Of a stretch of DNA of 64,000 nucleotides, positions 2,582 through 49,990 are shown in pieces; the first letter of the stretch is position 1; each line of letters opens with the position of its first letter. The position numbers and the translations under genes are program-made. The notes beneath the pieces were generated by a model. That model was not told the origin of the DNA, searched no databases, and was given only the letters and a program-made list of their open reading frames with translations. Source of the DNA: Enterococcus sp. DIV0212c (lineage in GTDB: Bacteria; Bacillota; Bacilli; Lactobacillales; Enterococcaceae); the NCBI RefSeq assembly GCF_017377505.1, contig NZ_JAFREN010000016.1, positions 241,192 through 305,191 on the forward strand, given 5' to 3'.

Positions 2582-3685
2582 TTATTCACCATCTTTTCTG
2601 CTGATTTTTTTCCGTTTTTGCTTTGGGTTTCCTTGTTTTTTTCGTTTAGCTATTTTGACCTTTCTCCATGATTTCTCCCATTTCTTTCTTCTAACCAAAA
2701 GTACTAACATGATCAAAATAGTCCCTAGACTCAAGAAAATTGTGGCTCCTTTAAGCCAAGTAGGCGTAATAATTTTAAACGCACTTTCTTCATTCATTTT
2801 TTTTGCTTGTTGATTTGTGATCGTGAATTCTTTACTTAGCTGCCACTCTTGGTACTCATTGGCAATATCTAAATTCAAGGTATAGGTTCCAGAAGGCAGT
2901 GCATCAATCCCCCAGTCAATCTCAAAATCAAAGACACTATTTGGCGCCATACTATAGTTGTCCACTGTTTTTCTTTTGACTACTTTATCTGATCCTTTTT
3001 TGGTCATCGTTGCCACAATGTTCAAATTTTCTAATACTTTTGCTTCTGGATTTTGCAAATTGGCTAAAACCATTTTTTTCCCGCGTTTGATTGATGCTTT
3101 GACTGCGTTCAAATTTAAGGTTTGAGCATTGTTGAATTCATCTCCTGATTCTGATGTAATTAACCCTACTCTATAAGAGAATTCTGTTGATACACCGTTT
3201 TTGTTATTTTTCCCTTGATCCAGCGCAAAAACTAAAGCACCCATTTTTACACCGTTGTATCGTTCTTTAGGAGGTGTTAATTGGATTTTCACAGTTTTTT
3301 CTTCATAATTGCCAATCGTAATCTCTGGCGTTTGAACTTTAATCATGGAAGTTATCGGTTCTTTTAAAGTTGAATCATAGTGTGTTTTATCATTACTATA
3401 TTCAATTGTGCCTCCATCACCTGTAATCGCATTTGTGCCGTATATCTTCAATTGGACATTCTCTTTTTTAGTACTTTTGATTCTTACTTCCAATGTCTGG
3501 GTTTCTCCTGGTGTTGTTTTCACATAAAAATAACTCTTACTAGGATCTATTTGTGTACTCGATTGCACAAGAGTTACTGTATAACCCAAATTATCGTCAT
3601 CACCTGCAGCACTCACTTGATCTGCAAAGAAAAAAATGGAAAGAGCACAAATGAGAATTGTATATATAGTACTAATCTTTTTCAT
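2582..3685 (-). CDS. DUF916 and DUF3324 domain WxL-interacting protein
   Basis: The 367-residue protein has a signal peptide (cut after DQVSA), an N-terminal DUF916 domain (FYVKTTPGETQTLEVRI, NAITGDGGTIEYS), a DUF3324 domain (KRGKKMVLANLQNPEAKVLENL, YSMAPNSVFDFEI, SKEFTITNQQA), a transmembrane helix near 310-330 (IFLSLGTILIMLVLLV) and a very basic tail. Proteins with this pair of domains (WxLIP, CscA) bind peptidoglycan and WxL proteins and anchor the complex to the membrane. It is a full-length paralogue of the truncated protein at the window start. The next gene downstream, the small YPTTN protein, starts two bases after its stop. Confidence 0.93.
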   Translation of the reverse strand: MKKISTIYTILICALSIFFFADQVSAAGDDDNLGYTVTLVQSSTQIDPSKSYFYVKTTPGETQTLEVRIKSTKKENVQLKIYGTNAITGDGGTIEYSNDKTHYDSTLKEPITSMIKVQTPEITIGNYEEKTVKIQLTPPKERYNGVKMGALVFALDQGKNNKNGVSTEFSYRVGLITSESGDEFNNAQTLNLNAVKASIKRGKKMVLANLQNPEAKVLENLNIVATMTKKGSDKVVKRKTVDNYSMAPNSVFDFEIDWGIDALPSGTYTLNLDIANEYQEWQLSKEFTITNQQAKKMNEESAFKIITPTWLKGATIFLSLGTILIMLVLLVRRKKWEKSWRKVKIAKRKKQGNPKQKRKKISRKDGE

Positions 3686-3719: not shown

Positions 3720-4397
3720 TTATGTTATTGCTTGAACAATAACTTCCACATACCATTCGTTCTCTTCACCCTCAGTTATACTATCCATTAAGGTGTATCC
3801 TTTTTTCTCAAAATACTCTAACCAATGAGTTATAAAATCTTTGGCGTATTGTTCAGCTTCTTCTTTTGTTTGAAAAGAACCTTGTTTTTTGACTACTTCA
3901 TTCTCTTCGTAGAATTCATCTTTTTCCTCATACAAGTATTTTGTGATCACGTATATGATAAACACGATCGTTAACGAAGCTATGAATAGCAGTAAGAATA
4001 ACGGCCAAACGATCGTCTTTAACATTGCTACTCCATTTATTCCTAAAATAACTAGAAAAACAATCAACGAATAGGTCATTTTTTTTGAATCAGTCAATTC
4101 TTTTTTATTTTTGATGTAGAACATCAAAATAAGGAATAGATTTAATGTCATCAACAAGAAAGTAATAAATAAATATTTCAAAATATCTTCCAAGTAAAAA
4201 TTCACCATAAACAATAACTGGACAATAAAATTGGCTTTTTTATCTACGTAAAAAAATGCTTCTTCATAAAATTTTGAAAATAAAATAAAATTGACTACCC
4301 ATCCAATCAAAAGCATCAGTTCATAGAAATAATACATTCTATAATGTTGATAATAATTATTTTTGTCTTTCACACACTTAGCCATCCATTTCTTCAC
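3720..4397 (-). CDS. Four-helix membrane protein of WxL locus 1, unknown function
   Basis: I do not recognise this 225-residue protein. It begins with a basic stretch (KKWMAKCVKDKNNYYQHYRMYYFY), then four hydrophobic helices up to about residue 155, then a charged cytoplasmic tail with an EEAEQYAKDFITHWLEYFEKKGYTL segment that looks like a small folded domain. It is the first gene after the regulator 4531-5241, with a 133-bp gap that holds a promoter candidate, and it precedes the DUF916 gene by 34 bases. The position suggests it belongs to WxL locus 1. No counterpart is seen in locus 2. Confidence 0.75.
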   Translation of the reverse strand: MKKWMAKCVKDKNNYYQHYRMYYFYELMLLIGWVVNFILFSKFYEEAFFYVDKKANFIVQLLFMVNFYLEDILKYLFITFLLMTLNLFLILMFYIKNKKELTDSKKMTYSLIVFLVILGINGVAMLKTIVWPLFLLLFIASLTIVFIIYVITKYLYEEKDEFYEENEVVKKQGSFQTKEEAEQYAKDFITHWLEYFEKKGYTLMDSITEGEENEWYVEVIVQAIT

Positions 4398-4506: not shown

Positions 4507-4534
4507 ATTTTATGGAGAAATATTATTATTTCAA
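4507..4534 (-). promoter_or_regulatory. Candidate promoter of WxL operon 1
   Basis: Reading on the minus strand, TTGAAA (4529-4534) and TAAAAT (4507-4512) are 16 bp apart and lie about 110 bp upstream of the membrane-protein gene at 4397. The -35 box overlaps the stop codon of the regulator gene. It is the best promoter-like pair in this gap, but the region is AT-rich so chance matches are likely. Confidence 0.4.
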
Positions 4535-5241
4535 TTAACTTTGGAACTGGTCAGTACATAACCTTTAGTTCTAATAATTTCAATTTCAAAGTAGGTTTGT
4601 TTTTTTAATTTACTCCTAATATGAAAAACAAAATTAGCTACTTTGTACTTAGCTGTTGATTCACTTGCAGACTCACCATATATCACTTTATTAATTTCGT
4701 TATAGGTAACAACATTTTCCAGATTTTCGTACAATAGCTGAATAAGTTTGAATTCTTTTCTTGTTAGTGCTATGCTTTTGTCATGAACTACTAGGCTTAA
4801 TTTTGATGCATCTAAAAAGTGACTGTCAGAAACTTTTCTTATCTTGCTTTCACTTAATAACTGTTTTTTATAGTTCATGGCATTTTTTATAACGATTCCT
4901 AAATTTTCAATACCTTGATTACTCTCTATAATTTCAATCACTGAGTTTTTACTTAGGTGTGGGTACAGTTTTATCATTTCTGATTCCTTATCTGCGCTAA
5001 GAATCCAGATAAACAAGGAATAATTTTCTTTCAAATCAATTAACCACTGAAATGCACTGACATAATCAGAAGATTTCTCTAAGCTAATGACCAAACCATC
5101 TAATAATCCTATCTGCTCTTTTTCTATAATTTCAATTAGTGAATACTCTTGTTCCTTGAGTGCTTTTTCGATTACTGAACTTATGTTAGGGTTCTTTTCT
5201 GATTCATTTCCGATATGTAATATGCCAATTGTACCTGCCAT
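4531..5241 (-). CDS. OmpR-like winged-helix regulator with degenerate receiver, head of WxL locus 1
   Basis: The 236-residue protein has a receiver-like N-terminal half (about 1-120) and a C-terminal OmpR/PhoB-type winged helix (about 145-232: LTRKEFKLIQLLYENLENVVTYNEI, KVANFVFHIRSKLKK, IRTKGYVL). In the receiver, the beta-3 segment reads DGLVISLEK, so the usual phosphoacceptor aspartate is replaced by a non-acidic residue; regulation by a histidine kinase is therefore unlikely. No kinase gene is nearby. AGGAGG lies seven bases before the ATG. The gene sits between the WxL operon and the recombinase cassette, and a promoter inside the inverted-repeat segment (5311-5339) points at it. Its paralogue at 40975-41682 holds the same position in locus 2. 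Control of the WxL operon is inferred from position. Confidence 0.85.
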   Translation of the reverse strand: MAGTIGILHIGNESEKNPNISSVIEKALKEQEYSLIEIIEKEQIGLLDGLVISLEKSSDYVSAFQWLIDLKENYSLFIWILSADKESEMIKLYPHLSKNSVIEIIESNQGIENLGIVIKNAMNYKKQLLSESKIRKVSDSHFLDASKLSLVVHDKSIALTRKEFKLIQLLYENLENVVTYNEINKVIYGESASESTAKYKVANFVFHIRSKLKKQTYFEIEIIRTKGYVLTSSKVN

Positions 5242-5262: not shown

Positions 5263-5299
5263 TTTGTTAGCTATTTATTTTTCTTGTTATGCTAACAAA
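5263..5299. repeat. 9-bp hairpin in the regulator leader
   Basis: TTTGTTAGC (5263-5271) is the exact reverse complement of GCTAACAAA (5291-5299). One arm lies inside the recombination core site and the other outside it, upstream of the ribosome binding site of the regulator. In RNA starting near 5304 this would form a hairpin before the start codon. A regulatory role is speculative. Confidence 0.4.
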
Positions 5300-5309
5300 C
5301 AAGAAAAAT
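5278..5309 (+). repeat. Left core inverted repeat of recombinase cassette 1
   Basis: This 32-bp stretch is the exact reverse complement of 6808-6839. It is itself a dyad: 11-bp arms TTTTTCTTGTT and AACAAGAAAAA surround an asymmetric centre of about ten bases containing GTTAGC (complement strand), the shape of a tyrosine-recombinase core site. The asymmetric centres of the two copies face opposite ways, which predicts inversion of the enclosed DNA. Confidence 0.9.
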
Positions 5310-5310
5310 C

Positions 5311-5339
5311 ATTATATAACTATCAATATCAACGCTCAA
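5311..5339 (-). promoter_or_regulatory. Outward promoter inside cassette 1, facing the regulator
   Basis: On the minus strand TTGAGC (5334-5339), a 17-bp spacer and a perfect TATAAT (5311-5316) form a strong sigma-A-type promoter. It lies one base inside the inverted repeat, so transcription should start inside the repeat near 5304 and run into the regulator at 5241. It would point away from the regulator after inversion. Confidence 0.7.
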
Positions 5340-5348
5340 AACATCTTG

Positions 5349-5368
5349 TGACGGAAAAGTTGACGGCG
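5349..5368 (+). repeat. Left paired TGACGG repeats (arm-type sites) of cassette 1
   Basis: TGACGG at 5349-5354 and TGACGGCG at 5361-5368 are 12 bp apart, start to start. The same pair occurs at the other end of this cassette and at both ends of cassette 2. Such paired direct repeats inside the core sites resemble the arm-type sites bound by the N-terminal domain of Tn916/lambda-like integrases. Confidence 0.7.
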
Positions 5369-5464
5369 TAAGTTTTCGCAAGAGTCAAATACCTAGTAAA
5401 ATATCTTGCTAACCTTAATCTAACTAAATACACATTTATAAAAAAAGTACGTTAAATGAAAAAT

Positions 5465-5515
5465 AAAAAAAGGCTTTCTACCTTCCAAACTTGATAATTT
5501 TTGAAAAGTAGAGAG
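5465..5515 (-). terminator. Terminator of recombinase gene 1
   Basis: Minus-strand RNA would pair CTCTCTACTTTTC (5515-5503) with GGAAGGTAGAAAG (5486-5474), allowing G-U pairs, followed by seven U (5471-5465). It directly follows the recombinase stop codon and would separate recombinase transcription from the outward promoter at 5311-5339. Confidence 0.65.
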
Positions 5516-5516
5516 A

Positions 5517-6599
5517 CTAACTGATTAAATTGATGGCTTTTCTTTTTTCTGACATAAAAGAATTTACATAAACATCTAGTGTCATTTTAGTTGAATGGTG
5601 ACCCAGCAAAGCACTAATCGTCGCGATATTCACCCCTTTTTCTAGACAACGCGTGGCAAAACTGTGCCTAAGTTGATGAAAACGAATGTTTGCAAAATGA
5701 AAACTTTGACAGATTTTCTTTAACCAATATGAAATAAGCCGAGGCTCTGCAGGCTTATTCCCACCTATAACGAAGGCTCCGATGCTCTTATGTTTTTTTT
5801 CAATTAAAAGCTTGCTCAAATTTTTTGAAAGCGGTATAGTTCTTTTAGATGTGGAGCTTTTAGGGGTACCTTCAATAATTTTTGTTTTTCCACTCCTGGT
5901 TTGAATTCGTTGAATTGTTCGTTGAACGATTAAAATGTTCGTTGAAAAATCAATATCTGCCCATTTCAACCCAGCAATTTCCCCAATTCTCATTCCAGTT
6001 TCTAGTGCTAATATAATAGCTAATCCTTTAGGATGGACAGCAGCTTGTTCCTTTAATTTTTTTTGGTCTTCTGAGGTAATTGCGTTTATGTTGTTAGGTG
6101 TTTTTTTAGGTAGAGTAATATGTTTGCAGGGATTTTCTGGAATCAGCCCTTTTCTTACTGCGGCAGTGCAACAAGACACCAGAACTTGATAGACAATTCG
6201 AACAGAATTTGGAGATAGTTCGCTTTCTATTTTTTTTATCCATTCGTTTAAATCGTTTGTCGTAATTGCATGTAAAGGAATGTCTCCCAAAAAAGGGAGA
6301 ATATGTTTCGTCATTTTATTTGTATAACTAGCATGTGTGCTTGGTTTTAGCTGGCCTTTGATGTCGGTGAACCAATAAGAAACCCACTCACTTAGCGTTC
6401 CGTGGTAGAGGATCGTTTTAAACGTGTAATTATGTGAGTATAATGCTTTCATCGTTAACAGTTTTTCTTTAAGGTCCAGATACTTTTTATTGTATATATA
6501 GCCGTACACGGCACTACCATCACTCTTTCTTCCTCTTATATATCTCCCCTCCCAGCGACCATCTTTACGTTTATAAATATTTTCTCCTTTTCTTACCAT
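5517..6599 (-). CDS. Tyrosine recombinase (Tn916/phage-integrase type), likely DNA invertase
   Basis: The 360-residue protein has a short N-terminal arm-binding region (residues 1-50, KGENIYKRKDGRWEGRY), a SAM-like core-binding domain (about 65-160, LSEWVSYWF) and a C-terminal catalytic domain. Catalytic residues are visible: Arg in TGMRIGE, the beta-hairpin Lys in TPKSSTSK, HQLRH, Leu-Gly-His in LLGHHSTK, and the Tyr in LDVYVNS. Length is full for the family. The gene lies inside perfect 32-bp inverted repeats and next to a surface-protein regulator, with no phage or conjugation genes, so site-specific inversion fits better than integration. The paralogue at 41941-43041 differs at one of the first 20 residues. 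A GGGAG-like ribosome binding site precedes the ATG. Confidence 0.92.
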   Translation of the reverse strand: MVRKGENIYKRKDGRWEGRYIRGRKSDGSAVYGYIYNKKYLDLKEKLLTMKALYSHNYTFKTILYHGTLSEWVSYWFTDIKGQLKPSTHASYTNKMTKHILPFLGDIPLHAITTNDLNEWIKKIESELSPNSVRIVYQVLVSCCTAAVRKGLIPENPCKHITLPKKTPNNINAITSEDQKKLKEQAAVHPKGLAIILALETGMRIGEIAGLKWADIDFSTNILIVQRTIQRIQTRSGKTKIIEGTPKSSTSKRTIPLSKNLSKLLIEKKHKSIGAFVIGGNKPAEPRLISYWLKKICQSFHFANIRFHQLRHSFATRCLEKGVNIATISALLGHHSTKMTLDVYVNSFMSEKRKAINLIS

Positions 6600-6625
6600 A
6601 AGTCATTACTCCCTTCTTTAAATTA

Positions 6626-6644
6626 TGACGGCGATTTGACGGCG
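6626..6644 (+). repeat. Right paired TGACGGCG repeats (arm-type sites) of cassette 1
   Basis: TGACGGCG occurs at 6626-6633 and 6637-6644, 11 bp apart, just upstream of the recombinase start codon. They are in the same orientation as the left pair (5349-5368), while the core sites are inverted. Binding here could also regulate the recombinase promoter. Confidence 0.7.
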
Positions 6645-6730
6645 AACACATTTCATAGCATAATAACAACGATTAATAACATAAATAAATAGATCTATAT
6701 GATTCATTTAATAAAACATTTAAAACAGTG

Positions 6731-6759
6731 TTGACAAAAACAATAAAACAGTATACTAT
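6731..6759 (+). promoter_or_regulatory. Second outward promoter candidate of cassette 1
   Basis: On the plus strand TTGACA (6731-6736) is 17 bp from TACTAT (6754-6759), about 50 bp inside the right inverted repeat and reading outward. In the present orientation it runs only into the terminator at 6958-6996. After inversion it would face the regulator. An alternative -10 TATACT at 6752 has a 15-bp spacer. Confidence 0.5.
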
Positions 6760-6807
6760 TTTTAGTGAAATGACTTAAAACAATTATTTTAATTATATTT
6801 ATTTTTC

Positions 6808-6839
6808 ATTTTTCTTGTTTGTTAGCATAACAAGAAAAA
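6808..6839 (+). repeat. Right core inverted repeat of cassette 1
   Basis: All 32 bases are the exact reverse complement of 5278-5309. Identity stops sharply on both sides, which marks the limits of the recombination site. Confidence 0.9.
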
Positions 6840-6957
6840 AATAAAAAAATAATGTATATTATCCAATTAATAACCAAATACATATGAATAAAGATAAATA
6901 AACCGTTTCCAATAACTTTTACTAATCTTATGAGTAAATTGAGAACAAACCTAAAAA

Positions 6958-6996
6958 AGATAGACCAAATACTCACCACGAGTGTTTGGTCTATCT
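6958..6996. terminator. Strong bidirectional terminator
   Basis: AGATAGACCAAATACTC (6958-6974) pairs with 6980-6996 with one G-U pair around a five-base loop, with A and T tracts on the two sides. It closes the DUF3224 gene from the right and insulates the cassette: any rightward transcript leaving the right inverted repeat should stop here. The DNA between 6840 and 6957 holds no gene. Confidence 0.85.
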
Positions 6997-7068
6997 TTTT
7001 TACTAATTACTTAATTGTATACATTTTTCAATTGCATTATCCCTGTATTTTGGACAATTTACTTTATA

Positions 7069-40974: not shown

Positions 40975-41682
40975 TCAACTAGACAACATATACCCTCTTG
41001 AACGTACAGTTCGGATATATTTTGGTTTAAAGGAATCATCTTCAAGTTTCTTTCTTAGATGAAAAATCAGATTTGCTACACGATATTTCTTATCCCCTTT
41101 TTCTTTCCCCCATACATTTTTGTACAGTTCTTCATAAGTGATTGCTTCACCTTTGTGACGAATCAGCGCTTCTAAAGCTTTAAATTCTAACTTAGTTAAA
41201 CCAACTTCACCTTTTCCTTCAATACTTACTGAAAAATTATTAGGAACCAATTGAATTGTTGGAACTTTGCCGCCTACCGAAGGGCCTGCTAATTGTGTAT
41301 GCGTAACTTTTTGATTTTTTTTGTTTACTCTTCTTTCTAACGTATTCATAATATACAAACAAAATTCATCTGATTCTGTTCGATTATCAAAGGTACCATC
41401 TGCACCTAACTGAAGATGAACGATCCGATTTACTTTCGTTGATTCATCCGATAAAATCCAAATAAAACTGCTAGTTAAATTTCTGACTTTAATAATCAAT
41501 TCACATGTTAGAGCAATTTCTTCTAATGCCGACTCAGTAATTATCACCGCATCCATTTTTTTGATTCCTTCATCAACTTCCTGTAAGTTGACTGGTTGAA
41601 CCGTACACTTTTTTTCTTTTAAAGCTGTTATGTATTGCGATTTACTACTTTCTAGATTACTTATTAGAGCTATGTTATACAA
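40975..41682 (-). CDS. OmpR-like winged-helix regulator with degenerate receiver, head of WxL locus 2
   Basis: The 235-residue protein starts with TTG, supported by AAGGAGG seven to eight bases upstream. It has a receiver-like N-terminal half whose beta-3 segment reads DAVIITES, so the phosphoacceptor aspartate is missing, and a C-terminal winged helix (LTKLEFKALEALIRHKGEAITYEEL, RVANLIFHLRKKLED, IRTVRSRGYML). It is paralogous to 4531-5241 and occupies the same place between recombinase cassette and WxL operon. It should control locus 2; no sensor kinase is present. Confidence 0.87.
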   Translation of the reverse strand: MYNIALISNLESSKSQYITALKEKKCTVQPVNLQEVDEGIKKMDAVIITESALEEIALTCELIIKVRNLTSSFIWILSDESTKVNRIVHLQLGADGTFDNRTESDEFCLYIMNTLERRVNKKNQKVTHTQLAGPSVGGKVPTIQLVPNNFSVSIEGKGEVGLTKLEFKALEALIRHKGEAITYEELYKNVWGKEKGDKKYRVANLIFHLRKKLEDDSFKPKYIRTVRSRGYMLSS

Positions 41683-41840
41683 TTTGTTTCCTCCTTCATC
41701 TTATTAATCATTAATTCCCATATAATTTCTACTTATATATTTTTTAAAAAATTATCAAGCTTAAAAATTATTATTTTATTCTAATTCATAGTAGAATTTA
41801 TTATTATCACTCTCTTTTATAGTTATAAAAGAAATTTCTC

Positions 41841-41861
41841 GTTCTAAATAAGAACAGGAAA
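41841..41861 (+). repeat. Left core inverted repeat of recombinase cassette 2
   Basis: These 21 bases are the exact reverse complement of 43322-43342. The site contains GTTCT and AGAAC half-sites around a five-base asymmetric centre. Identity to the right copy ends on the outer (left) side, where the flank differs. Confidence 0.82.
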
Positions 41862-41903
41862 TCATTGCATAAACCCAATAATATCAACGGTTTTAATTTC
41901 CTT

Positions 41904-41923
41904 TGACGGCTCACGTGACGGCG
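41904..41923 (+). repeat. Left paired TGACGGC repeats of cassette 2
   Basis: TGACGGC (41904-41910) and TGACGGCG (41916-41923) are 12 bp apart, lying between the core site and the recombinase stop codon. They match the repeats of cassette 1 although the core sites differ. Confidence 0.7.
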
Positions 41924-41940
41924 AAACCGTAATTTTTTCA

Positions 41941-43041
41941 TTAAATAGCAGCTACTGCTTCCACTGCAATTCTTTCTTCAGCTAAATTTGAGTTGGTATA
42001 AATATCTAGCGTCATTTTGGTAGAGGCATGACCTAGTAATGAACTGATCACAGCAATATTTACCCCTTTTTCCAAACAACGGGTAGCAAAGGAATGTCTC
42101 AAAGCGTGAAAAGAGCAATTCACCAATTTTAATTTTTGCAATAACCGTTTAAATTGATAACGTATTGTCCGTGGTTCTGTATAGGTTTGGTTTTTAGCAA
42201 CGACATACGCACTATTGCTGTGCTTACTTTTATTTAATAGTTGTTCTAATAAGCCAGAAGACAACGGAATTGTTCGTTCTGAGGTTTCTGATTTTGGCTT
42301 TTCTTCAATAATATGCGTTTTTATGCCGCCTTCCGTGTGTTTTTTTACCCTCTGAAGTGTTCGTTTTACTGATAATACTTTACTTTCAAAATCAATATCT
42401 TCCCATTTCAATCCTGCAATTTCTCCAATTCTCATACCAGTTTCTAATGCTATCAACATAGCTAACCCATCAGAAGATTGTTTTGCTTCTTTTACTAAAA
42501 GTTTGTGTTCAAATTGCGAAATATTAACTATTCTAGTTTTTCTTACTTTCGGAAGCTCAATATTTTCATAAATTGAACTACGAACAAAATGAAGTTTTTC
42601 GGCATATTTTAATGAAGTTTTTAATACTCTGAATACAGAATGTAGCGAATTTATGGAAACTTTTTTCTGTGTAATACGTATGAATTGATTGATATGCGCT
42701 GCATTTAAATCACTTAAGCGAATACTTCCAATAGTCGGGCGAATATGACAATCGATTTTACTTTTATAACTATCAAATGTTCCTGGCTTTACTTTAGTCG
42801 TGATAACTGTTTCCAACCAGTAATCGAGCCAATTATTAAGGCTCCCATAAAATTGTTCTGAGTTTTCTTGCTCAGAAAACATTGTGGCTTTTTTTATAGT
42901 CAATTTTTCTTTAACAATTCTATATGATTGACCATAAACGTAGCCGTAATGAATATGTCCATTGGCTTTTCTACCCTTTACATAACGCCCTTCCCAACGT
43001 CCATCTTTTCGTTTATAAATATTTTCCCCTTTTCTAGCCAA
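41941..43041 (-). CDS. Tyrosine recombinase, paralogue of the cassette-1 enzyme
   Basis: The 366-residue protein shares the N-terminal arm-binding region with the cassette-1 enzyme (19 of the first 20 residues identical), a core-binding domain (LNNWLDYWLETVITTKVKPGTFDSYKS) and the catalytic set: Arg in TGMRIGE, the Lys in KPKSETSE, HALRH, LLGHASTK and the Tyr in LDIYTNS. It is full length. It sits inside inverted repeats beside a winged-helix regulator, as does its paralogue, and no phage or transfer genes flank it. Its likely task is inversion of its own cassette. Confidence 0.92.
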   Translation of the reverse strand: MARKGENIYKRKDGRWEGRYVKGRKANGHIHYGYVYGQSYRIVKEKLTIKKATMFSEQENSEQFYGSLNNWLDYWLETVITTKVKPGTFDSYKSKIDCHIRPTIGSIRLSDLNAAHINQFIRITQKKVSINSLHSVFRVLKTSLKYAEKLHFVRSSIYENIELPKVRKTRIVNISQFEHKLLVKEAKQSSDGLAMLIALETGMRIGEIAGLKWEDIDFESKVLSVKRTLQRVKKHTEGGIKTHIIEEKPKSETSERTIPLSSGLLEQLLNKSKHSNSAYVVAKNQTYTEPRTIRYQFKRLLQKLKLVNCSFHALRHSFATRCLEKGVNIAVISSLLGHASTKMTLDIYTNSNLAEERIAVEAVAAI

Positions 43042-43068
43042 AGTAATCTTCCTTTCACAAAAAATAAT

Positions 43069-43088
43069 TGACGGCGAATATGACGGCG
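43069..43088 (+). repeat. Right paired TGACGGCG repeats of cassette 2
   Basis: TGACGGCG occurs at 43069-43076 and 43081-43088, 12 bp apart, just upstream of the recombinase start. Same orientation as the left pair. Confidence 0.7.
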
Positions 43089-43321
43089 AAAAAGAAATGT
43101 TTTTTTCTCATTTTATTCAGAAATTAATGAAGAAATTGATATTTTCTTGAGGTGAAAATGAGTTATACTTACAAAAGATAAAAAAAAGAGATAACAAACA
43201 CATATTTTCTAAGTTTAATATCTTTTATATGCCAGATTGACAATATTATATAAATCATATACCCTTTAAAAAGAAATGAAATTAAAAAAATATCTATTTT
43301 TCCTTTTTCCCGCTGAATCCT

Positions 43322-43342
43322 TTTCCTGTTCTTATTTAGAAC
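43322..43342 (+). repeat. Right core inverted repeat of cassette 2
   Basis: TTTCCTGTTCTTATTTAGAAC is the reverse complement of 41841-41861. Here the dyad is longer: TCCTGTTCT and AGAACAGGA arms pair perfectly around TATTT. Confidence 0.82.
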
Positions 43343-43906
43343 AGGATTTTTTACTCCTTTTTTCTCTGTTCCTAGTATAGAAAAAAAAAGACCTTTTTTA
43401 TTATCAAAAAAAAGAGCAAATACTATATAATTTTAATAACTATTTGAAACTATAAGGAGTTACTATTGATAACGTTTGTAATTTTTTTGAAAAAATAGAG
43501 CATGAAGCTAAAGTGAAAAACACTTTTACCTCACACTCTATAATCGAATAAACGCTAACATAACAACAGACTGAAAATAGATCGTATCAGCAAGTGTGCG
43601 CTAAATTTGATACTTTTATTCACAGTCTCGTTGGTACTATAACTATACTCTTTTATCTATCCTAAAATATGTACGTCACGCTCTACCTATCTTTCATTTT
43701 TTTCTAATAAGGTCACCGCATAAAACCGATATCGCTAAAACAATTCAAGCGATAATAGCAATCAGGTATCTCGATACAATACTTACCCGTTAATCCAAAT
43801 AGGATACACCCAATCCTCAGACTGCATGATTTATAAAAATACAAGAAGACAATTCTCTTGTCAAAGCCAGTAACTAATCCTATCTAATCAAAAAAAGGAC
43901 ATAAAA
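43343..43906. other. Gene-free region with an orphan hairpin
   Basis: About 560 bp between cassette 2 and the LssY_C-like gene. At 43498-43538 an imperfect hairpin with a U tract on the minus-strand side (TATTTTTTC) looks like a terminator, yet no gene ends there. A minus-strand frame around 43880-43720 without a plausible start codon could be a gene relic or chance. Nothing firmer is seen. Confidence 0.4.
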
Positions 43907-48871: not shown

Positions 48872-49990
48872 TTATTGATCTGAATCTTCTTTCACCAAGT
48901 TGATGATTTGGTTGAATGCTTGTTCTGATTCTTCCTTAACATCTTTGATGCGTTTGTAATAGTTTTGGTATTCTTGTTCAGCACGTTCTAAACGTTTTAA
49001 AACGTTAGCTTTTCTCTTCGTTTCTTCGTTGATCATATTTGCGTGTTGATTTGCTTGATTGATAATTTCTTTTGCTTGTTTTTTAGCATCCAACAAGACT
49101 TCGCCAATGTCTTCTTTTGTCAATTGTTGATCAACATCAACTGTTTTAACTGCTAACTGTTGTTTTGCTGTTTCTAACTCTTGACGAACTTTTGCTAGTT
49201 CTTCATAGACACCTTGGTCAGTAGGCGTATCTGATGACATGATCACGATACGATCTTCTGATAGTTTATCGATTTCTTCTTGTTTGGCTACTAACTCTTG
49301 TTCATACTGTCTGATTTTATTCGCAAAGCGCTCAGCTTTTTTACGATTCAAGTCAGTCTCATCCATTTGGCGATTACTTTCACGTAAAAGGTTGTTATAT
49401 TTGCTTTTTACTTGTTCAAGTTCTGCCATACGAGCATCGTAATCTTTTGGCACAGCTTGCACCATTGATAATTCATTTTCTAATGACTCATTTGTTTGAC
49501 GCGCAGCTTCTACTTCATTTTGTAAACGTGTGGTGTCTCTTTTACTTTTACGCAATTCTGTTTTTAACTCGCGAATGTCCGCTTGAAGTTGTTCATTTTC
49601 TTCTTGAAGTTCTTCTAATTCACCGTCATCGATAATTTCATTAACTGGTGGTCTTTTTTTCTTTGGACTAGGTTTTCTTGGTGCAGGTGCGTGTGTTTTC
49701 TTTTTCCTTGAGAATATTGGACGATCATCTTCCTCTTCGTCATCGTCATAATCTTCATCATCGTCGTCATATTCATCATCATCGTCGTCATAATCTTCAT
49801 CGTCATCGTAGTCATCATCGTAGTCATCATCATCGTCATCGTCGTCATATTCATCATCATCGTAGTCGTCATCATCATAATCTTCATCGTCATATTCATC
49901 GTAATCTTCGTCGTCATAATCTTCGTCATCATATTCATCGTAATCTTCGTATTTTTTTCTTTTTTTACCTTTGCCAAAAATTTTTAGCAT
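48872..49990 (-). CDS. Coiled-coil protein with a long Asp/Glu/Tyr tract
   Basis: The 372-residue protein begins with a short basic segment (MLKIFGKGKKRKK), followed by residues 14-89 made only of Asp, Glu and Tyr, a Lys/Pro-rich linker, and coiled coils over about 120-230 and 260-370 (ELEELQEENEQLQADIRELKTELRKS; AKKQAKEIINQANQHANMINEETKRK). The C-terminal part resembles DivIVA/GpsB-type cell-division scaffolds in style, but the DivIVA N-terminal domain is missing. It heads an operon with an autolysin, so it may organise wall synthesis or lysis at a given site. Confidence 0.85.
   Translation of the reverse strand: MLKIFGKGKKRKKYEDYDEYDDEDYDDEDYDEYDDEDYDDDDYDDDEYDDDDDDDDYDDDYDDDEDYDDDDDEYDDDDEDYDDDEEEDDRPIFSRKKKTHAPAPRKPSPKKKRPPVNEIIDDGELEELQEENEQLQADIRELKTELRKSKRDTTRLQNEVEAARQTNESLENELSMVQAVPKDYDARMAELEQVKSKYNNLLRESNRQMDETDLNRKKAERFANKIRQYEQELVAKQEEIDKLSEDRIVIMSSDTPTDQGVYEELAKVRQELETAKQQLAVKTVDVDQQLTKEDIGEVLLDAKKQAKEIINQANQHANMINEETKRKANVLKRLERAEQEYQNYYKRIKDVKEESEQAFNQIINLVKEDSDQ
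49724..49951 (-). repeat. Trinucleotide-rich tract coding for Asp/Glu/Tyr
   Basis: The 228-bp stretch is built almost only of GAT, GAC, GAA, GAG and TAT/TAC codons. Such DNA can change length by slippage or recombination in whole-codon steps, changing the acidic tract without shifting the frame. Reverse-strand His/Arg-rich frames over it are artefacts. Confidence 0.85.

Follow-up and report, generated by a model that had tools for sequence, protein, structure and literature searches.

Background

Little is known about how enterococci regulate their WxL proteins, which make up a major class of surface proteins on the cell wall. Among the enzymes that operate invertible DNA switches, Hin is a serine recombinase; the fimS element measures 314 bp, and its recombinases FimB and FimE are encoded outside it and have no arm-binding domain. 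In the Hin-type segments of Salmonella, the recombinase gene lies within the inverted segment (PMC5903667), and the cmr switch of Clostridioides difficile, which stands before CmrRST, flips a promoter upstream of response regulators (PMC8844915). Here we analyse a stretch of 64,000 nucleotides from Enterococcus sp. DIV0212c (contig NZ_JAFREN010000016.1, positions 241,192 to 305,191; referred to as the window), in which a 1.56-kb cassette (5278-6839) stands directly before a regulator gene and an operon for WxL surface proteins. It is very probable that this cassette is a self-encoded phase-variation switch with an invertible promoter, and that it was sequenced in the OFF state.

A first-pass annotation of the window had compared the cassette with switches run by tyrosine recombinases, naming FimB/FimE, RecV and Mpi of Bacteroides. 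Such a class of switches is indeed known, but Mpi does not belong in it, being of the serine type (PMC5903667). The annotation also knew of no described switch of this kind for WxL loci; likewise, we found no description of a self-encoded WxL-targeting switch in searches covering open-licence PMC papers. The class of mechanism is thus already known, and it is the self-encoded cassette architecture with WxL targets that appears undescribed in that literature.

Recombination sites and recombinase of the cassette

The cassette is delimited by an inverted repeat (IR) with arms of 32 nt at 5278-5309 (+ strand, proximal arm) and 6808-6839 (- strand, distal arm), separated by 1498 nt as given by a repeat search of the window. 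The arms are 100% complementary, corresponding to an IR score of 32, which confirms the perfect repeat with core-site shape that the first-pass annotation had reported. In a null set of 300 mismatched flank pairs, the scores averaged 11.6 (95%, 15; 99%, 22) and reached 24 at most; this null and the core-site pattern together rule out a chance inverted repeat. Each arm is built as a core-type site, in which half-sites of 11-12 bp flank the non-palindromic heptamer TGCTAAC, located at 5290-5296 in the proximal arm and as an inverted copy at 6821-6827 in the distal arm. Inverted recombinase sites hence bound a small block, as in the class of invertible-promoter switches, and with core sites in this inverted arrangement recombination would not be expected to excise it.

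The claim that a tyrosine recombinase gene is the only gene in the cassette also proved right, as the sole listed open reading frame (ORF) of at least 90 aa within it is 5517-6599 (- strand). The encoded protein of 360 aa matches Phage_integrase (E 2.3e-24) and Phage_int_SAM_3, and its catalytic set R204, K247, H308, R311, H334 and Y344 aligns with 6emy and is invariant across nine paralogs in the source genome. This R-K-H-R-H-Y set and the family match identify the protein as a tyrosine recombinase. Among solved structures, its nearest matches are Int proteins (6emy/6emz group; E 1.9e-25), which we take to be structures of the Tn1549 integrase.

Core sites across the genus

Recombinases of this type are present in 22 of 22 genomes of the genus, with 6-13 matches per genome and 193 in total (E <= 1e-60). 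We examined 172 of these, representing 171 distinct loci because two of them, L206 and L207, are the same locus. The first batch comprised 100 loci (all 91 from ten near-complete genomes, and the nine of the source genome), and the second batch 72 of the 93 loci from eleven other genomes. An IR with a score of at least 17 was found at 84 of the 100 and 56 of the 72 loci, respectively (140/172). The single-locus view of the first-pass annotation accordingly requires extension: the locus is real, and it belongs to a large set.

For alignment of the core sites, 137 of the 140 IR-bearing cassettes were used, L178, L283 and L278 having been removed by hand because of chance arms or unusual spacing. 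The central 7 bp were identical between the two arms in 136 of the 137 cassettes, and as many as 78 distinct heptamers occurred. The difference between arms was 0.1% in the central seven positions, 5.3% at half-site positions 5-11 and up to 57% at position 15. When sites were chosen by their half-sites alone (with L207 left out as a duplicate of L206), all seven central positions still matched in 133 of 164 loci, which rules out that the matching centres are an artefact of ascertainment. Of the remaining 31 loci, five had 5-6 central matches and 26 had 1-4; an IR of score 17 was also lacking in 24 of these 26. Matching centres combined with variable heptamers are the mark of what would be a 7-bp overlap for strand exchange. 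An overlap of 7 bp is also used by lambda Int.

Inversion of related cassettes

The first-pass annotation had deduced from the opposed asymmetric centres that recombination would lead to inversion; the core-site pattern fits this, and inversion was seen in related cassettes. Both the anatomy of the cassettes and their inversion, in one relative within one assembly and in two others between species, are direct observations. In the assembly G021, L206 and L207 occupy opposite ends of a single contig, and these ends overlap directly over approximately 40 kb (offset 3,802,240). The overlapping copies are 99.9% identical, have 14-15 gap positions per 19 kb and are collinear except at the cassette, where they differ by an exact inversion of the 1560 bp bounded by the IR. 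The overlap presumably reflects an untrimmed and unpolished circular assembly of long reads. The arms of the G021 cassette differ at three positions, which show that the flip left the outer halves in place and moved the inner halves, indicating that exchange took place within the shared TATAACTTCTACTT. The two copies probably represent two real orientations, and an artefact reversing exactly this block appears less likely. Two further cassettes, L152 and L180, are flipped relative to their orthologs in other genomes, with collinear flanks in both cases; L180 (from G007) is the ortholog of a second cassette in the window. Both orientations within one assembly were thus found for one relative cassette (that of G021), and the window locus itself is represented by one orientation.

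Predicted promoter, arm-type repeats and terminator-like hairpins

Apart from its core sites and gene, the window cassette contains, or adjoins, several features that had gone unnoted in the first-pass annotation. A predicted sigma70-like promoter, TTGACA-N17-TACTAT, is located at 6731-6759 (+ strand) between the recombinase gene and the distal core, with a score that was reached by none of 20 shuffles. This is the single exact match in the window, where 0.03 would be expected, with the proviso that the pattern was picked after the match had been seen. In the orthologs of the window cassette the TTGACA box and the 17-nt spacing are kept while the sequence of the spacer is variable. The promoter is at present directed outward, away from the regulator; upon a flip, which converts position p to 12117-p, it would read into the regulator from approximately 110 nt upstream of its start codon. 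In the flipped loci L152, L180 and L207, a distance of 55-91 bp separates the end of the predicted promoter from the cassette edge on the regulator side, and the promoter score was reached by 0/20 shuffles in L152 and L207 and by 3/20 in L180.

Pairs of arm-type repeats, as in integrases with arm sites, lie on both sides of the recombinase gene on the - strand: one pair with CCGTCA words at 5349-5368, between the gene and the proximal core, and one pair (CGCCGTCA) at 6626-6645, between the start of the gene and the distal core. The repeats of each pair are GCCGTCA or a near variant, approximately 11-12 bp apart. A hairpin resembling an intrinsic terminator follows the recombinase gene, before the regulator (5471-5518, - strand; -13.9 kcal/mol, z -2.97), and a strong bidirectional terminator-like hairpin lies beyond the distal core at 6952-7002 (+ strand, -31.7 kcal/mol, z -12.2; - strand, -27.5, z -6.9). 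The latter is a possible sink for the outward transcript of the OFF state.

To what extent these features recur was counted in 83 of the 84 IR-bearing loci of the first batch; L178 was left out as its score-17 IR resembled chance. Promoters were called when their score was reached by no more than 1 of 20 shuffles (about 8/83 expected), and terminators when it was reached by no more than 1 of 10 (about 15/83 expected). Including the arm region, the distal flank contained an outward promoter in 41 cassettes and an inward one in 6. Because the arm repeats yield TTGACG, the scan was repeated with the arm region removed, and an outward promoter then passed in 36 of the 83 cassettes versus 4 on the opposite strand. 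Terminator-like hairpins were found after the recombinase gene in 47/83 and beyond the distal core in 47/83, compared with 12/83 in the control leader; the corresponding numbers for strong hairpins were 34, 27 and 0. The word CCGTCA occurred in the inner flanks upstream (74/83) and downstream (79/83) of the recombinase gene, whereas it was found outside the cassette in 1/83 on either side, and its reverse complement in the inner flanks in only 2/83 and 1/83.

Proposed mechanism

According to the mechanism that we favour, the N-terminal part of the recombinase would bind the arm-type GCCGTCA repeats, as suggested by the position of these sites and their repeated nature, and the catalytic part would bind the two inverted core sites. 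Strands would then be exchanged within the 7-bp overlap, and the 1.56-kb block would flip together with the recombinase gene. In the OFF state, the promoter at 6731-6759 would fire away from the regulator into the terminator, and the recombinase transcript would end at the hairpin before the regulator. In the ON state, the promoter would be placed upstream of the regulator start codon at the distance given above, and the regulator would drive the operon for WxL surface proteins. We infer the activity of the window locus and of its promoter, the binding of the arms and the action of the regulator on the operon from this arrangement. Taken as a whole, the cassette suggests an integrase with arm sites that has been converted into an autonomous switch.

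Alternative explanations

A number of findings weigh against an invertible-promoter switch. Of the 127 loci with a regulator, 124 have the recombinase gene directed toward it and three have it directed away (L152, L180 and L207), L207 being the second of the two G021 copies. This skew implies that in sequenced cultures flips are infrequent or biased, or that selection acts against them, and the near-uniform orientation that the OFF state is common there or the ON state costly or short-lived. The window locus and its ten relatives in other genomes (recombinase at least 75% identical) all share one orientation with no flip, and no sign of inversion was seen among the plasmid loci of Enterococcus raffinosus (three matching groups, up to 1.5 kb from the recombinase). 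The first-pass annotation had suggested a search for the flipped state in related genomes: this failed for the relatives of the window locus (0/10) and succeeded for L152, L180 and the G021 copy.

Further counterpoints come from the scans. The outward promoter stayed below the shuffle cut in 47 of the 83 cassettes, including L003 and L009 of the source genome; the proximal flank showed a promoter-like signal directed back at the recombinase in 16/83; and a promoter for the recombinase did not stand out in the scans of these 83 cassettes. Within the source genome, the recombinase terminator scored zero in four of the eight IR-bearing cassettes (L002, L006, L007 and L009) and no better than shuffles in L008, with a hairpin and T-run that the scan missed being visible by eye in L002, L007 and L008. 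Finally, 32 of the 172 examined loci had no IR of score 17.

The main rival explanation is that inversion is real and that the polarity is the opposite, or that there is no promoter switch at all: the present orientation would express the regulator by read-through or from a fixed promoter, and a flip would disconnect it. The co-directionality of recombinase and regulator in 124 of 127 loci could represent such an expressed state, at some loci the fixed DNA between core and regulator is well over 100 bp long, and some cassettes of the source genome showed no terminator in the scan. This explanation is, however, without promoter support, as promoters toward the regulator were not enriched in either the proximal flank (10/83, about 8 expected) or the fixed leader (5/68). 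Moreover, terminators are enriched between the recombinase and the proximal core (47/83, about 15 expected), and the window locus has only 36 bp between core and start codon. We therefore regard an opposite polarity as improbable.

Less probable still is that the switch in the window has become locked or has decayed, and does not invert while its relatives do. The common orientation of all ten relatives would agree with this, and some cassettes are indeed broken, such as L153 of G006, whose recombinase gene has two stops; but the window cassette has an intact ORF, its catalytic residues and perfectly matching arms, including the centre. That a small mobile element, consisting of an integrase and terminal inverted repeats, landed by chance upstream of the operon is very unlikely, since in spite of the kinship of the recombinase to the 6emy/6emz Int proteins and of arm-type repeats like those of integrative elements, cassettes hold a fixed place before regulators in many species, recombinase and regulator similarities co-vary (see below), and the ORF list of the window block contains neither cargo nor an excision gene.

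Regulator and WxL operon

The regulator gene that would be connected by the invertible promoter lies at 4531-5241 (- strand) and encodes a winged-helix protein (Trans_reg_C). A gap of 36 bp, which contains AGGAGG, separates its start from the proximal arm, in agreement with the first-pass annotation, which had the cassette abut a regulator heading a WxL operon. The protein resembles full response regulators weakly, all NCBIfam matches being far under the cut-off. The genes that follow on the same strand encode an apparent membrane protein, judged by eye and assigned to no Pfam family (3720-4397); a WxL-interacting protein (WxLIP) with the domains WxLIP_PGBD and WxLIP_HBD (2582-3685); a small sortase-type protein resembling EF2685/EF0750 (2262-2579; 39.8 bits, under the model cut-off of 47); and a WxL-domain surface protein (1199-1939). 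WxL and WxLIP proteins are thereby encoded together (PF13731, PF06030 and PF11797), which identifies the operon as a WxL operon.

Elsewhere in the window, an ORF at 48872-49990 beside LysM-type proteins has a long N-terminus rich in Asp, Tyr and Glu, and similar ORFs rich in these residues are found downstream of the cassettes L085, L079 and L214.

A set of cassettes in the genome, the genus and beyond

The source genome encodes nine recombinases of the same type, which are 42-100% identical. Eight of the nine are bounded by IRs, and each of these eight immediately precedes a regulator of this kind that heads a WxL-type operon, so that the link to such operons recurs well beyond the window locus. 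The second cassette in the window (41832-43351; arms 41832-41861 and 43322-43351) contains a recombinase gene at 41941-43041, the product of which is 48% identical to that of the first, and it precedes a regulator (40975-41682) and a large WxL-type operon. The ninth paralog, L004 (L016:8649-9770), has no IR, no GACGGCG-type repeat within its 4-kb locus and different neighbours, and is an orphan recombinase without sites of its own. Recombinases of this family that lack IR and arm repeats and have matching neighbours are also found in other genomes, at least four in number (L130, L137, L155 and L176); these neighbours are, by eye, an HTH-type gene and a WxLIP-like gene.

Across the genus, the recombinase has a regulator of the same family no more than 1.5 kb away at 76 loci of the first batch and 51 of the second. 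For the 24 loci of the first batch without a regulator match, the neighbours were read at all 11 with an IR and at 8 of the 13 without. Eight IR-bearing loci without a regulator match (L141, L142, L143, L146, L149, L190, L201 and L205) directly precede one large ORF that by eye is of secreted or surface type, with no intervening regulator. The similarities between recombinases co-vary with those between regulators (Mantel r 0.67, p 0.001) and with those between core half-sites (Mantel r 0.48, p 0.001), in both cases over 117 loci, again without L207.

The heptamers vary between close relatives: in 19 of 20 close paralog pairs within a genome (pairs that are not independent) they differ, and this holds even for recombinases that are 99-100% identical (L161/L162, L162/L163 and L211/L212). 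L161 and L163, which form a 99% pair, have their heptamer in common. Overall, a heptamer was in common in 1 of 422 within-genome pairs compared with 106 of 8758 between-genome pairs; as the between-genome rate is inflated by orthologs, the former number alone is not a strong test. It is an evenly balanced proposition whether the 6-13 recombinases per genome all represent autonomous self-encoded promoter switches, whose private 7-bp addresses would block joining between loci, so that the operons would flip independently and give up to approximately 2^8 surface combinations per clone.

Some individual loci deserve mention. L153 retains its inverted repeats beside the recombinase gene with two stops, and its switch may be locked; the recombinases L243 and L244 of E. 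raffinosus HG-5 are likewise disrupted by stop codons. The contigs of G019 carrying L296 and L297 have their starts within a cassette or immediately beyond one, which would fit a break of the assembly near the inverted repeats. On the plasmid pCX012922 of E. raffinosus (L226), the recombinase stands before a helix-turn-helix gene and an accessory Sec locus with SecA2, SecY2 and Asp1, which suggests a candidate switch over adhesin export. On a plasmid of E. gilvus, the recombinase precedes a WxL operon.

At the level of the family, the recombinase was found in 37 of the 105 genomes and in 4 of the 17 genera (E <= 1e-110). Relatives in Clostridia are 33-42% identical, and 28 of the 31 classified loci have an IR of at least 17, judged against a null that was not matched for composition. 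They often have TTTCGCAAA-type cores and in some cases CCGTCA words, with varied downstream genes (read at 14 of the 31 loci). IR-flanked examples are L104, L108, L109, L112, L124, L126, L127 and L128, several of which have TTTCGCAAA-type cores; the IRs of L126 and L127 are identical, although the loci belong to Butyricicoccus and Blautia. At L113 (5380-7635), a very long inverted repeat (score 105) surrounds the recombinase, with similar-looking genes on both sides, and this is possibly an inversion that swaps genes.

Implications and comparison with known systems

If each WxL operon has a flipping promoter of its own, much of the surface repertoire would escape expression studies on cultures in the common orientation, and cultures taken to be isogenic could be mixtures. 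In addition, the well over 100 matched combinations of recombinase, core and arm sites with variable 7-bp overlaps should be useful for studies of how integrases choose their sites.

The cassette resembles the RecV-dependent cmr switch of C. difficile in having a tyrosine recombinase, inverted repeats, a promoter (here a predicted one) in the block and a target of response-regulator type, and also in that the reference orientation is OFF there (PMC8844915) and would be OFF here. In contrast to RecV, which serves several switches (PMC8844915), each block here comes with a recombinase and arm repeats of its own and in most cases with a separate heptamer, and would act on a WxL operon rather than on CmrRST. 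As in the Hin segments, the enzyme gene is inside the inverted block (PMC5903667), whereas the enzyme is of the tyrosine integrase type with arm-type repeats; the cassette may thus work like Hin without being a member of that group. With the fim switch of Escherichia coli it shares a tyrosine integrase that inverts a block (PMC9993118), an inversion that would here, too, connect or disconnect an operon for a surface structure. Homology in the catalytic and core-binding domains, together with the arm-type repeats, links the recombinase to integrases of the Tn1549, Tn916 and lambda type. Unlike in these systems, however, the core sites of the cassette are inverted and local, the block has no genes for excision or transfer, and the expected outcome is inversion.

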